64,000 nt of DNA, taken from NCBI RefSeq assembly GCF_025263265.1, contig NZ_CP079869.1, forward strand, positions 4,340,001-4,404,000, read 5' to 3'. The notes under the pieces are model-generated. The model searched no databases, was not told where the DNA came from, and worked only from the letters and a program-made list of their open reading frames with translations. The position numbers and the translations under genes were made by a program. Position 1 is the stretch's first letter. Each line of letters starts with the position of its first letter. Shown one piece after another: positions 33,997 to 39,501 of this stretch. The DNA comes from Mycobacterium sp. SMC-4 (lineage in GTDB: Bacteria; Actinomycetota; Actinomycetes; Mycobacteriales; Mycobacteriaceae).

Positions 33997-34848
33997 TCAG
34001 TCCGACGTGCGGCGCCGGTAGGCGTAAAGCGCGAACGGCGCGAATATCGCGGTGAGGGCGACCGACCAGAGCACGGTGGACAACACCGGATGGTGCAGAG
34101 GCAACTGGGCACTGGCCGGTGCCGGCCCGCCGTTGCCCCAGAGCTCTCGCATCGCCTGCGCCAGCGAGGACACCGGATTCCATTCGGCGATGACCCGTAG
34201 CCAGTGCGGCATCGGTTCGGTGGGCACGAAGGTGTTGGCCAAGAACGTCATCGGGAACAGCGCGGTGAACATCACCCCGTTGACCGCCTCGACGGTGCGC
34301 ATCAGAGAACCGACCAAGATGCCAAACCAGATGATCCCGAAACCGAACAGCAGCAGCAGGATGAACGCCAGCACCGCCTCGGCCACGCCATTGCGGATGC
34401 GCCATCCGATCGCCAGGCCGGTCAGCGACATCACCACCACACCGAGCGAGGAGTGGATCAGGCTGGCGATGCTGCGGCCGATCAGCACCGCCGAACGCGA
34501 GATCGGCAGCGACCGGAAGCGGTCGATGATGCCCTTCTCCACGTCGGCAGTGATACCGGAGGCGACGACGAAGGCCGAAAAGACGATGGTCTGCGCCAGT
34601 ATTCCGGCCAGAAGGTACTCCCGGTAGGACGACCCGCCGGTGTTGATCGACGCACCGAAGACGAACGCGAACAACAGCACGAACATGATGGGTTGCGCCG
34701 TGACGTCGCTGAGCATCTCCGGCATCCGCTTGGTGTGGATCATGTTGCGCTTGACCATGATCCAGGACTGCTGAGCTATGTTGGTCGGGTGGGTCGGGAC
34801 CGGGTCGGGCCGGACCGAAGCCCGCGCCCTGGCGTCGAGTGCGGTCAT
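33997..34848 (-). CDS. ABC-2 type permease (DrrB-like)
   Basis: The 283-residue membrane protein has a cytoplasmic N-terminus (about 50 residues), six membrane segments and the ABC-2 motif region EKGIIDRFRSLPISRSAVLIGRS. With the ATPase encoded upstream it would form a DrrAB-type exporter for a lipid or drug-like molecule. The ATG at 34848 overlaps the stop of the ATPase gene (ATGA). The pair lies between pth and a large secreted protein gene and is absent from this place in M. tuberculosis. Confidence 0.88.
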   Translation of the reverse strand: MTALDARARASVRPDPVPTHPTNIAQQSWIMVKRNMIHTKRMPEMLSDVTAQPIMFVLLFAFVFGASINTGGSSYREYLLAGILAQTIVFSAFVVASGITADVEKGIIDRFRSLPISRSAVLIGRSIASLIHSSLGVVVMSLTGLAIGWRIRNGVAEAVLAFILLLLFGFGIIWFGILVGSLMRTVEAVNGVMFTALFPMTFLANTFVPTEPMPHWLRVIAEWNPVSSLAQAMRELWGNGGPAPASAQLPLHHPVLSTVLWSVALTAIFAPFALYAYRRRTSD

Positions 34849-35807
34849 ACGCCGGCCTCCTGGTTGTCGTCGGTGCGGTGCCCGGTCAGGGAGAGGAACA
34901 CGTCGTCGAGGCTGGGTCGTGACAGTCCGATGTCGTCGACCGCGACGCCGCCGTCGCGCAGCCAACCCGCGACGGTGATCATGTCGTCGAGTCCGTCGGC
35001 CGAGGCGGTGAGTTTGCGTGCCGCGGCGTCGACGAAAACCTCTGCCCCGGTACGGGCCAGCAGACCCCGCGCGCGCTCGAGGTCGGCCCCGGCCGAGACG
35101 GTGACCACCAGACTGGCGCGCCCGGCCTGCTGCTTGAGTTCCAGCGGCGAACCCTGCGCGATGATCCGGCCGCGGTCGATGACGACGATGTTGTCGGCCA
35201 ACTGATCGGCCTCCTCGAGATACTGGGTGGTCAACAGCAAGGTGGTGCCTTGGGCCACCAGTGCGCGCAACACATCCCACAGCTCGCTGCGACTGCGTGG
35301 ATCCAGACCCGTGGTGGGCTCGTCGAGGAACAGCACCGGCGGTGCGGCCAGCAGGCTCACCGCCAGATCCAGCCGCCGCCGCATGCCCCCGGAGTAGGAC
35401 TTGACCACCCGGTCTGCGGCATCGGTGAGCGAAAACTGGTGCAGCAGTTGGTCACCGAGCCGGTCCAGGTCCTTCCTGCGGATACCGTACAGACCGCCGA
35501 TCATCCGGATGTTCTCCCGGCCGGTCAGGATCTCGTCGACGGTGGCAACCTGGCCGGTCAATCCCATATGTCGGCGGACCTGATCGGGCTCGGTTCGGAT
35601 GTCGTACCCGGCCACCCGGGCCGTCCCACCGGTCGGCTCGGTCAGCGTCGTCATCATCCGCACGGTGGTGGTCTTTCCCGCACCGTTGGGGCCGAGCAGC
35701 CCCAGCACGGTCCCCGGCGGAACCGTGAAGCTGACCCGCTCCACCGCGGGGACCCCGTCGTAGTGTTTGACCAATTCGACGGCCTCGATCGCCGGCGCAG
35801 TAGACAT
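34845..35807 (-). CDS. ABC transporter ATP-binding protein (DrrA-like)
   Basis: The 320-residue ATPase has Walker A GPNGAGKTTT, signature SYSGGMRRRLDLA, Walker B VLFLDEPTTGLD, and LLTTQYLEEADQLAD with glutamine in the H-loop place, as is usual for DrrA-type daunorubicin resistance transporters. The C-terminal DUF4162-like domain (residues 230-310) ends in LSRPSLDDVFLSLTGHRT. I chose the ATG at 35807 (MSTAPAIEAVELVKHY). It is translationally coupled to the permease and divergent from the PGRS-peptidase-like gene (253 bp apart). Confidence 0.92.
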   Translation of the reverse strand: MSTAPAIEAVELVKHYDGVPAVERVSFTVPPGTVLGLLGPNGAGKTTTVRMMTTLTEPTGGTARVAGYDIRTEPDQVRRHMGLTGQVATVDEILTGRENIRMIGGLYGIRRKDLDRLGDQLLHQFSLTDAADRVVKSYSGGMRRRLDLAVSLLAAPPVLFLDEPTTGLDPRSRSELWDVLRALVAQGTTLLLTTQYLEEADQLADNIVVIDRGRIIAQGSPLELKQQAGRASLVVTVSAGADLERARGLLARTGAEVFVDAAARKLTASADGLDDMITVAGWLRDGGVAVDDIGLSRPSLDDVFLSLTGHRTDDNQEAGV

Positions 35808-36060
35808 GGCTCGACGGTATCGGGTCGCGCCGACACGCACCGACCGGCAGTGCCACAGGCTAATGGCGCCGGCCTGGGGACAGGCCGGGGCGCAACGCGA
35901 AGGCGCCCACACCCCAGGTGTTTCTGCCCGACACAAAGTTGCGGCAGAAAATTCACGCATTTGGCCAGCAACGTCATTCGTCGGTCCCTACGATCCTGCT
36001 AGCTCGTTTACGCGGGTGTCAAAAACAGTGTCCGTTTCCGTGCGGACCGATCCGGGGGGA

Positions 36061-39000
36061 ATGACGTCGATGGCTGCTTGCGCTGCAACGAACCAGGTGG
36101 ACCGTGCCGGGTCCGGCGATGCCGCACCGAGAAATGCTCGCGCAACACGGCGGCCGTCGGAGGACTTCGCCGTGCGGCGCTGGTTGAAGGTCGGCGCCGC
36201 GTCGGCCGGCCTCGGTGCAGCACTGGTGGGTTTCTCCCTGATGGGTCCTCAGATCGGCGTCGCCGCCGCCGAGGACACCAGTTCGTCATCGTCAGCCAGT
36301 TCGTCACCACGCAGTTCCGAATCCACCTCGGCCGGCACGAGAAGTGACCGTTCAGATCGTGATTCCGCGACGCCCGGCAAGCGGACGCGCGCATCTGCGG
36401 ATGCGTCCACCGCAGCCCGCAAGAGCACCACGTCGCGCAGCACCGTCGATGTCGAGGCGGCCCTGACAACCGAAGGGAACCACTGGGCAGCCGAGAAAGC
36501 CGACACCGCGGAGCCGTCGAGTACCACAAGCCGCTCGACCACCAACCAGCCCGACCCGGCACCGGCGTCAACCTCCTCCGATCGTCGCAGCGCCCAGCCG
36601 TCCACCACCAGCACCGAGGTGCAGGTGGTGGTCGACACAGTCGATCTTGAGCCGAAGGCCCTGAGCTCCAATGCAGCCCCACTGGGGCCCGTGACCACAC
36701 CAGGCCTGTTCACCTTCCTGTTCGGCAACGGCACCGCCGCCCGACCCAACGGCGGCATCCTGATCGGCAACGGCTTCTCCTGGACTGCTGACACCTGCCC
36801 CGCAGTGACCTCCTGCAAGGGCGGTAACGGTGGCATCTTCGGCAACGGCGGAAACGGCTTCAACGGCGGAAACGGCGGGCGCGCAGGCTGGTTCGGGGAT
36901 GGCGGAAACGGCGGGATCGGTGTGGCCGGACTCAACGGCGGCGCCGGCGGAAACGGCGGCGCGGGCGGGCTGATCTACGGCAACGGTGGTGCGGGCGGCG
37001 CCGGGGCCACCACGGTGGCCGGGTCCCTCGGCGGGCGCGGCGGCTCGGCCGGTGTGTTCGGACACGGCGGCGACGGCGGCGCCGGTGGCACCTCGACCGG
37101 TGACTTCCGCGGCGGAACCGGAGGTCAGGGCGGCACCGGTGGCCTGCTGTCCGGAGACGCCGGAGACGGCGGCGACGGCGGCGACGCCATCCTGAACGGT
37201 CAGACCGGCGGCACCGGTGGCCGCGGCGGCGACACCGGACTGGTATCGCTGTCGGGCAACGCCGGCGCCGGCGGAGCCGGTGGCAACGCCAGTTTCGGCG
37301 GACAAGGCGGCGACGGCGGAAACATCGGCCTGCTGGCCCCCTCTGGCATGGGCGGCGACGGCGGCGCGGGAGGCAACAGTCCCCGCGAGGGCAACAGCGG
37401 CAACCAGGGCGGAAACGGCGGAAACGGCGGCCGGGCCGGTCTGCTCATCGGCAACGCGGGCGACGGCGGCGAAGGCGGACGCGGCGGCGGGAACGGCGGC
37501 AACGGTGGCAACGTCGGGCTGCTGTCCCTGTTCGGCGCCGGTGGTGACGGCGGCGACGGCGGACAGGGCCAGGCGGGATTACCGGGGCTCAACGGGACGA
37601 ATGCAGAACCCGACGGCGCCGAGGGCGGCACAGGCGGCTTGGGCGGGCGCGGCGGCAACGGTGGCCGGGGCAGTCAACTCTTCGGCGTCGGCGGCAACGG
37701 CGGTGACGGTGGCGCGGGCGGAACCGGCGGCAAGGGCGGTCAGGGACGCTACGGCGAGCGCGTTCCCGTCGGGCCCGGCCGGGACGGAGGCAACGGCGGA
37801 GACGGCGGAACCGGAGGACCCGGCGGGGCGCTCGGCGGCCTGCCCGGTACCGGTCGCTTCTTCCTTTTCATCGCCGCGAACGGAACCGCCGGTGCCGTCG
37901 GTGCCGGCGGCACCGGCGGTGAGGGTGGCGCCGGCGGTGACGGCGGCTTCTCCGATGACGGTAGCGACGGGGGCAACGGCGGCAAAGGTGGAAACGGCGG
38001 GGCCGGTGGAGCCGCCGTCGCAGGCGGCGACGGCGGTGACGGCGGAAACGGCGGGGTCGGCGGCGCCGGCGGGGAAGGCGGTGACCTCACCGCCGGCGGA
38101 ACCGGCGGCACCGGCGGTAACGGCGGGGTCGGCGGCGCCGGTGGGCCCGGACTCGATGACGATGATCCCGGCGGCGACGGCGGGGCGGGCGGCAGCGGAG
38201 GGGGTGGCGGTAACGGCGGTTACGGCGGAACTCCCGGAGTCGGTGGCAACGGGGGCGACGGCGGGGACGGTGGCGACGGCGCGCCCGTCGACGGGGACGG
38301 CGGCCTGGGTGGCGCCGCAGGTGAGGGCGGCCTGGGCGGTTACGACCCCGACGACGACCAGGCGGCCAGTGGCCAGGACGGTGACCGCGGCGCCGACGGT
38401 ACACCGGCAACCAGCGCCACGGCCACGGTGACCGACTCGGCGTCGTTCTTCACCGAGATCAGCCGTGCGCTGGCCTACGTGTACTTCAATCGCGCGCCGA
38501 GCGTCTCCCCCGACATCGGCGGCCAGGTCGGCGACGACAAGTCGATCACCATTGATCTGAATGGCAAGAGCAACAACGGCTTCGAGGTCTCCTACACCAT
38601 CAAGGAGGGGCCGCGGTACGGCCGCTTGGAGCTCGGGGAGTCACCCGGCACCTTCGTCTACGTCGCCGACGAGACGTTGATCAGGCCGGGCATCGTCGAC
38701 AGCTTCATCATCACCATCGACAACGGCGCGGCGGCCAAGCGTCCCGGTCTGGCAGGCCTGTTGCAGACTCTGTTGCACAGTTTCGCTGTGCGGATGGGCT
38801 ATTCCGACGCCGACACCATCGACGAGCAGATCACCGTCACGGTCAGCGGAGATGGACAGTACGGAAATGCCAAGGACGCCGCGGAATATTGGGTCTCACA
38901 GAATTACGAGAATTGCGTGCTTCAGGCCAGTGCGGCCGCCATCGGCCAGGCCACCCGCAGCACCCCGCCCGGTGAGGAGTGGATGGTCCATCTGGCCAAG

Positions 39001-39501
39001 ACCACCGACAGTGTGGCCGAACCGGGCCGGAAGATGTATTTGCACGAGCGCATCTCCGAAGGTGTCGACGAAGAGGATGCGGCGGCACTGATGCAGATGT
39101 ACTTCGACGTCACCGCAACCCACCGGAAATACGGCACCTTGGACAAGGAGACCGATACCTGGAGTTCCACAGAGCAAGACGGTCAGGATGCGCTGCGTGA
39201 CCTGCAGGCCGCACTGGCTCGCGGCGACGCCGCGATGGTCGCCTATCCCGTCGCGATCGTCTGGAGCGCCGTCACCGATTTCATTCCGGGCCCTGAGAAC
39301 AGCTACACCTACGCCGACCACGCAGCAGTTGCGACGCAGGTCGATCTGAAACGAGGCATCGTCTACGTCAACGACAGCTCGATGACCGATAAGGGGGAGC
39401 CGGTCGGACAAGCCAAGGCATTGCCGATCGGCGTCTTCATGGCCGGTTGGCAGGCCGCCAACTATGAGCTGACCATCGTGTCGGCCAAGAAGTCCGACTA
39501 G
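36061..39501 (+). CDS. Secreted PGRS protein fused to an Ig-like segment and a C39/papain-like cysteine peptidase domain
   Basis: The 1146-residue protein starts with a long signal region (RRWLKVGAASAGLGAALVG then GVAAA), followed by a Ser/Thr-rich linker (residues 70-215). A module with FGNG, GGILIGNG and a Cys pair leads into about 530 residues of GGxGG repeats (252-780). Residues about 810-930 look like a bacterial Ig/cadherin-like domain (SPDIGGQVGDDKSITIDLNG, GRLELGESPGTFVYVAD). Residues about 935-1146 resemble the C39-like papain fold: Q947 and C952 (SQNYENCVLQASAAA), H1087 (YADHAAVATQVD) and N1104/D1105 (VYVNDSS) could form the active site. The first ATG (36061) abuts a G-run; the ATG at 36070 has better spacing. 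Peptidase activity is inferred from residue pattern only. Confidence 0.78.
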   Translation: MTSMAACAATNQVDRAGSGDAAPRNARATRRPSEDFAVRRWLKVGAASAGLGAALVGFSLMGPQIGVAAAEDTSSSSSASSSPRSSESTSAGTRSDRSDRDSATPGKRTRASADASTAARKSTTSRSTVDVEAALTTEGNHWAAEKADTAEPSSTTSRSTTNQPDPAPASTSSDRRSAQPSTTSTEVQVVVDTVDLEPKALSSNAAPLGPVTTPGLFTFLFGNGTAARPNGGILIGNGFSWTADTCPAVTSCKGGNGGIFGNGGNGFNGGNGGRAGWFGDGGNGGIGVAGLNGGAGGNGGAGGLIYGNGGAGGAGATTVAGSLGGRGGSAGVFGHGGDGGAGGTSTGDFRGGTGGQGGTGGLLSGDAGDGGDGGDAILNGQTGGTGGRGGDTGLVSLSGNAGAGGAGGNASFGGQGGDGGNIGLLAPSGMGGDGGAGGNSPREGNSGNQGGNGGNGGRAGLLIGNAGDGGEGGRGGGNGGNGGNVGLLSLFGAGGDGGDGGQGQAGLPGLNGTNAEPDGAEGGTGGLGGRGGNGGRGSQLFGVGGNGGDGGAGGTGGKGGQGRYGERVPVGPGRDGGNGGDGGTGGPGGALGGLPGTGRFFLFIAANGTAGAVGAGGTGGEGGAGGDGGFSDDGSDGGNGGKGGNGGAGGAAVAGGDGGDGGNGGVGGAGGEGGDLTAGGTGGTGGNGGVGGAGGPGLDDDDPGGDGGAGGSGGGGGNGGYGGTPGVGGNGGDGGDGGDGAPVDGDGGLGGAAGEGGLGGYDPDDDQAASGQDGDRGADGTPATSATATVTDSASFFTEISRALAYVYFNRAPSVSPDIGGQVGDDKSITIDLNGKSNNGFEVSYTIKEGPRYGRLELGESPGTFVYVADETLIRPGIVDSFIITIDNGAAAKRPGLAGLLQTLLHSFAVRMGYSDADTIDEQITVTVSGDGQYGNAKDAAEYWVSQNYENCVLQASAAAIGQATRSTPPGEEWMVHLAKTTDSVAEPGRKMYLHERISEGVDEEDAAALMQMYFDVTATHRKYGTLDKETDTWSSTEQDGQDALRDLQAALARGDAAMVAYPVAIVWSAVTDFIPGPENSYTYADHAAVATQVDLKRGIVYVNDSSMTDKGEPVGQAKALPIGVFMAGWQAANYELTIVSAKKSD
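36817..38400 (+). repeat. Glycine-coding PGRS repeat tract of the PGRS-peptidase gene
   Basis: About 1.6 kb of short degenerate units coding GGxGGx, denser in GDGG toward the 3' part, where acidic inserts (DDDDPGGD, DPDDDQ) appear that could add calcium ligands. It is in-frame coding repeat and the cause of long open frames on the other strand. Confidence 0.85.

Follow-up and report, generated by a model that had tools for sequence, protein, structure and literature searches.

Proteins with a PGRS region have been studied mainly as substrates of the PE/ESX-5 route. The closest described system is PecA, or PE_PGRS35, of Mycobacterium marinum and M. tuberculosis, presented in three reports as a surface PGRS protein that ends in a protease domain (PMC6819658, PMC9436101, PMC7550000), and in two of them as a surface aspartic protease (PMC6819658, PMC7550000). 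The PGRS itself has been modelled as a polyglycine-II sandwich in one of these (PMC9436101). A precedent for a swapped export module is LipY, whose N-terminal module is PE, PPE, or a signal peptide depending on the species; it is a lipase, and the passage on it does not mention PGRS (PMC7550000). For the non-pathogenic mycobacteria, a 2025 review describes PGRS domains in M. smegmatis and in Mycolicibacterium, regards the N-terminus of these proteins as questionable, and asks for their PE domain to be confirmed; the words ‘signal peptide’ and ‘C39’ do not occur in its text (PMC11939664). Here, we analyze a stretch of 64,000 nucleotides from Mycobacterium sp. SMC-4 (contig NZ_CP079869.1, positions 4,340,001 to 4,404,000; hereafter the window), in which a single 1146-codon frame at 36061–39501 of the forward strand joins a signal peptide, a Ser/Thr linker, a PGRS, an Ig-like segment, and a C-terminal enzyme domain. 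This segment order, the frame, and its coordinates had been given in a preliminary description of the DNA and were all borne out on re-examination of the frame.

We conclude, with a probability of roughly 0.68, that the product of the gene is a PE-less PGRS protein displaying on the mycomembrane a papain-like, C39-type cysteine peptidase that cuts extracellular protein or peptide substrates. The computed evidence comprises the architecture, the predicted fold, residue conservation, purifying selection, and a tree on which the PGRS state changes just once. In mechanistic terms, the signal peptide would send the protein across the inner membrane via general export, and the cap and PGRS could then be seated in the mycomembrane as a polyglycine-II sandwich, as the published model proposes for PGRS. 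The PGRS would be preceded by the disordered Ser/Thr linker, while the Ig-like segment would hold the C-terminal papain-like domain at the cell surface, where Q947, C952, H1087, and D1105 most likely carry out the cutting. The protein would work like PecA/PE_PGRS35, i.e., as a PGRS-tethered surface protease of another catalytic class and with another export signal. Whereas PecA combines an aspartic protease with a PE domain and ESX-5 export, the window protein is predicted to be of the papain-like cysteine type and has a signal peptide and an intervening Ig-like segment; an aspartic protease domain of the PecA type is absent, with a predicted papain-like fold carrying Cys and His instead.

The papain-like, C39-type domain spans 38836–39498 (+ strand; residues 926–1146, 221 amino acids; numbering counts from the ATG at 36061, for a product of 1146 residues, except where the 1143-residue product is named). 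The AlphaFold2 model of this domain, with a predicted local distance difference test (pLDDT) score of 87.7, is papain-like and related to C39, in keeping with the preliminary description, which had read such an enzyme from the residue pattern; a fold unlike papain did not emerge. In a second pass over the Foldseek list, the C39 domains of ComA and PCAT1 superpose on the model at ~2 Å over 135–136 residues. Papain-family proteins were considered as the closest kin and set aside; their Z falls below that of the C39 rows in the second pass, yet they rank above C39 in plain Foldseek. The likeness to the C39 domains of ComA and PCAT1 and to Peptidase_C39_2 (PF13529) lies in the predicted fold and the Gln/Cys/His/Asp order, whereas the window domain differs in lying below Pfam detection, in the Val that follows its Cys, in its length of 221 residues, and in an architecture without fusion to an ABC exporter. 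A C39-like label already exists in UniRef, where the M. duvalii orthologue P0002 is named ‘Peptidase C39-like domain-containing pr...’ (a hypothetical protein at NCBI), and the PE-less PGRS platform is the more novel part. The first protein search, in which the best 7994 candidates by shared words were scored, returned three matches.

The four predicted catalytic residues occur all together in 67 of 70 distinct domain copies. Taken singly (all on the + strand), Q947 (38899–38901), the predicted oxyanion-hole residue, is kept in 69/70 copies; C952 (38914–38916), the predicted nucleophile near the N-terminal end of a long helix, in 68/70; H1087 (39319–39321), the predicted catalytic His at the start of a strand, in 68/70 (one gap, one Lys); and D1105 (39373–39375), the predicted third residue, in 69/70 (one gap). 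The Gln, Cys, and His singled out in the preliminary description are conserved among the homologues, and no refuting loss of C952 or H1087 came to light. Its choice of N1104 as a further active-site residue gives way to D1105, which appears to be the better third residue because Asp is found in 69/70 copies against 62/70 for N1104, although this choice is not final. Papain has Asn as its third residue, and Asp suits C39. Two proteins carry a double C39-like domain (L024, 2143 residues; L035, 808 residues), and in both the catalytic Cys survives only in the second copy. The first copy has Thr in its place in L024 and has lost Gln, Cys, and His in L035; each protein is possibly a pair of pseudo-enzyme and enzyme.

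The M. duvalii orthologue P0002, known from database annotation alone, is 71% identical over residues 830–1146, with an identical segment order and the same neighbours if genome G277 is M. duvalii. Relatives with identical segment order are present in other mycobacteria as well, and this is no chance frame. The ratios of nonsynonymous to synonymous substitution rates (dN/dS) against M. duvalii are 0.53 for signal and linker, 0.18 for the cap, 0.28 for the PGRS, 0.30 for the Ig-like segment, and 0.22 for C39; against G420 they are 0.56, 0.10, 0.38, 0.28, and 0.22, and against the more distant L005 0.46, 0.27, 0.22, 0.28, and 0.36, the latter being rough, with dS up to 1.3. Purifying selection acts on the gene. 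Compared with the M. duvalii loci L077/L089, the window gene is 53–88% identical by segment (C39, 71%) and nine neighbours are 85–98% identical; in this comparison, the gene evolves faster than its surroundings.

The C39-like domain was found in 132 of 248 genus genomes by a profile search (E ≤ 1e-10). Many of the frames among the matches listed are 230–310 residues long, and frames of 1000 residues or more occur in at least 20 of the 248 genomes; all 20 long C39 frames retrieved, from 14 genomes, have 35–45 GGxGG units. PGRS-less forms comprise Ig and C39 (L036, L039, L040), linker and C39 in tandem genes (L034), and the double C39 of L035. In a tree of 68 of the 70 copies, a single branch separates the 45 PGRS-bearing ones from the rest (98/88; recovered in 97% of 200 bootstrap trees); the tree is unrooted, the long branches of L035 and L040 are unsure, and the truncated genes L023 and L025 were left out. 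The simplest reading would be one PGRS–C39 fusion, followed by duplication.

Several points weigh against the proposed surface peptidase. Plain Foldseek is weak: the single match under E 0.001 is a Treponema cysteine-protease construct with a root-mean-square deviation of 16.8, papain-fold rows run from E 0.002 up, and C39 chains lie outside the first 50. In the second pass, phytochelatin synthase, a transpeptidase with a papain fold, ties with the C39 rows; the fold therefore does not fix the reaction. PDB sequence searches, with the domain and with the profile, found no C39 structure and nothing meaningful. Since PF13529 does not match the window protein at E ≤ 1, the protein is named C39-like rather than a Pfam member, and none of seven full-length PGRS-type relatives rises above the cut-off (three weak matches). 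The Peptidase_C39_2 match looked for after the preliminary description therefore fails in the window protein itself and holds for several relatives: two of the eight scanned pass the 24-bit cut-off (L038, 30.2 bits; L034, 506 residues, 29.6 bits) and four more match below it. The residue after C952 is Val, whereas Gly is usual after the catalytic Cys in C39. Residue conservation is partly built in, in that 25 loci of the genome_contigs set were found through patterns, one of them containing YVNDSS; loci from the profile searches are free of this bias. Lastly, export, location, catalysis, and substrate are inferred, and a Sec product would still have to cross the mycomembrane.

Translation likely starts at 36070 (coding sequence 36070–39501, + strand, 1143 residues) rather than at the alternative in-frame ATG at 36061 (1146 residues), because a possible ribosome binding site seen by eye, GGGGGGAA (36054–36061, + strand), lies 8 nucleotides ahead of the ATG at 36070 and the M. 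duvalii protein aligns from the Met encoded there (MAACAATNQ). Upstream, the frame stays open as far as 35767. The signal peptide region (36061–36270, + strand) has a long basic n-region, a hydrophobic core at about residues 44–61, and a putative cleavage site perhaps after A70 (between AAA and ED), as called from hydropathy and a loose AxA pattern. It contains RRWLK, which we take to resemble a Tat motif. This motif is present in the window protein and in M. duvalii and absent from most relatives compared, so Sec is the likelier route; Tat export was considered and not retained.

No PE domain (PF00934) was matched in the window protein (E ≤ 1) or in seven relatives (E ≤ 0.1). The protein thus lacks the N-terminal PE domain that defines a PE_PGRS protein, and ESX-5 export is not expected for it; the replacement of the PE module by a signal peptide, as first described, agrees with this result and with the signal-peptide-like N-terminal segment. 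The sole match in the Pfam scan was a sub-threshold PGRS, and an NCBIfam scan gave nothing above any cut-off. The Ser/Thr-rich linker (36271–36705, + strand; ~145 residues) is predicted to be disordered, and the full-length model has pLDDT < 50 for residues 1–209 of the 1143-residue product. It is followed by a cap ahead of the PGRS (36706–36855, + strand), in which NGTAxxPNGGILIGNGxSWT precedes C246-x5-C252. Both Cys are invariant across the 16 sequences of the full-length alignment and model (the window protein, P0002, and 14 of the 20 listed loci), and similar Cys pairs also stand ahead of the PGRS in proteins without C39. A search with the N-terminal 280 residues found no match among phages.

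The PGRS (36823–38400, + strand) is made up of GGxGG repeats over ~525 residues, and many of its Gly columns are invariant in the same alignment. The window protein scores 18.3 bits over three stretches against the PF21526 cut-off of 27, with a plain GGxGG pattern. In the full-length model, confidence extends over about residues 210–780, with the PGRS blocks mostly at pLDDT 80–96 and hardly any helix or strand. The PDB entry that it matches best is a bundle of nine polyproline-II helices; this match is weak (E 1.7e-3; none under E 0.001) and would agree with the polyglycine-II sandwich of the published model (PMC9436101). The Ig/cadherin-like segment (38476–38835, + strand; residues 806–925, with a helix at 893–909 of the 1143-residue product) matches cadherin repeats loosely in Foldseek (E ~0.006), and one of seven relatives scanned (L012) lies above the Pfam Big_9 cut-off. 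Both the PGRS and the Ig-like segment were recognized correctly at the outset.

With the cap and first PGRS units as a query, 81 places were found in 19 of 60 genus genomes, and 20 of them, mainly frames not already known to carry C39, were retrieved. The C39 profile (E ≤ 10) matched none of these 20 frames and all 20 of the long C39 frames. A hydrophobic N-terminal segment was detected by script in 19 of the 20 C39-less frames, and in L107, where the script picked a different stretch, it was seen by eye; the loose Cys-pair cap pattern is present in 16/20, against 17/25 and 17/20 in two overlapping C39 sets. No PE domain was found in the nine C39-less proteins scanned with Pfam (E ≤ 0.01). In 12 of the 20 frames, no more than 35 residues follow the last GGxGG, and one frame (L122) is cut by the contig end. 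Others carry further C-termini: L115 (G253, 524 residues; PF21526, 28.2 bits) ends in a TNT-like domain (PF14021, E 2.8e-19), L119 in a cadherin/Ig array (Pfam), and L114 has a C-terminal FDFDNT motif that by eye recalls haloacid dehalogenase (HAD) phosphatases, with no such Pfam match at E ≤ 0.01. Together, this looks like a PE-less family built of a signal peptide, a Cys-pair cap, and a PGRS, with varied C-termini. Its N-terminus, as far as sequence can tell, is a signal-peptide-like segment plus linker, which for this family answers the question, raised in the review, of a PE domain in the PGRS proteins of Mycolicibacterium (PMC11939664). In searches of an open-access library, no listed title or abstract dealt with a PGRS–C39 fusion or signal-peptide PGRS proteins; two of the papers listed contain both C39 and PGRS.

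The cap–PGRS module occurs in 19 of 38 genomes with at most four PE domains and in none of 22 with at least eight (Fisher p 2.4e-5), a p value that overstates the evidence, as the split probably follows few lineages and genomes are not independent. PE counts, which reach at least 71 per genome, were made at E 1e-6 (0/14 control genomes match), since E ≤ 0.001 gave a match in the E. coli control. The query came from one PE-poor species, and diverged modules in PE-rich genomes could be missed. We tentatively suggest, while holding it less likely than not, that there may be two largely exclusive routes of PGRS display, i.e., PE in PE-rich lineages and, in PE-poor ones, signal peptide plus cap with its own enzyme tips, C39 possibly processing or shedding signal-peptide PGRS proteins as PecA does for PE_PGRS. 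Should PE-poor species indeed export the PGRS with an ordinary signal peptide, the folding of this module, its seating in the mycomembrane, and enzyme display become testable without ESX-5.

Other activities and targets can be weighed against the proposed peptidase. As a special case of it, the domain might mature its own protein or other PGRS proteins by cuts in the linker, as PecA does in its PE domain. The disordered linker of ~145 residues would offer room for such cuts, and similar linkers were seen by eye in C39-less signal-peptide PGRS proteins, in some cases alongside the C39 form in the same genome (G034, G004, G002, G242, G117). This is nevertheless doubtful, as there is no known cleavage site and C39 copies, many of 230–310 residues, also exist without PGRS, so that the ancestral substrate was probably different. 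With the same placement, an acyl- or peptidyl-transferase, or an amide hydrolase, with envelope material as its substrate would fit the tie with phytochelatin synthase; we consider it unlikely, given that relatives match Peptidase_C39_2 and the third residue is Asp. The broken first copies of L024 and L035 show how a non-catalytic, papain-fold binding module might look, but the four residues are intact in the window protein and in 67/70 copies and dN/dS is 0.22 against two orthologues, making a pseudo-enzyme quite improbable. A toxin tip on a PGRS stalk, aimed at neighbouring cells as a contact-delivered effector, is very unlikely: none of the 25 genome_contigs loci retains the window neighbours, which leaves no kept candidate immunity gene there, and kin of the domain exist as small stand-alone proteins.

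The least probable of these readings, with almost no weight in our view, is peptide processing for the divergent DrrB/DrrA-like ABC exporter next to the gene (33997–35810, − strand), a partnership raised in the preliminary description. The divergent pair is kept in M. duvalii and G420, and the adjacency was met only in G277 (taken as M. duvalii) and G420. The DNA around the 25 genome_contigs loci (≤ 8 kb on each flank, shorter where a contig ends) contains no DrrAB orthologue, apart from one 29% DrrA match. A partnership as a general rule was rejected. DrrB orthologues (E ≤ 1e-80) occur in 31 of 118 genomes, 29 of which have no long C39 frame among the matches listed; in those matches, DrrB and a C39 frame of at least 1000 residues coincide only in G277 and G220, and are adjacent only in G277. 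Moreover, exporter C39 domains act in the cytoplasm, whereas the window domain is predicted to lie outside the cell. Thus, the exporter is probably not a functional partner, and the link looks positional. More broadly, across the examined loci (up to 8–10 kb a side for some, ~1 kb for many), the neighbours pks16, ispE, ksgA, drrAB, and pth surround the gene in G277 and G420 alone.

No relative was found in the viral_contigs set. In one PGRS–C39 gene, L043 of M. litorale F4, the C39 region is split over two overlapping frames and may represent either a decaying gene or a sequencing error, between which we do not decide. Plasmids gave one match, C39 only and 29% identical, on pRHL3 of Rhodococcus jostii RHA1 (L064, 4860–5558), a stand-alone C39-like protein with an ABC-domain gene after it and a score of 23.6 bits, just under the PF13529 cut-off of 24.

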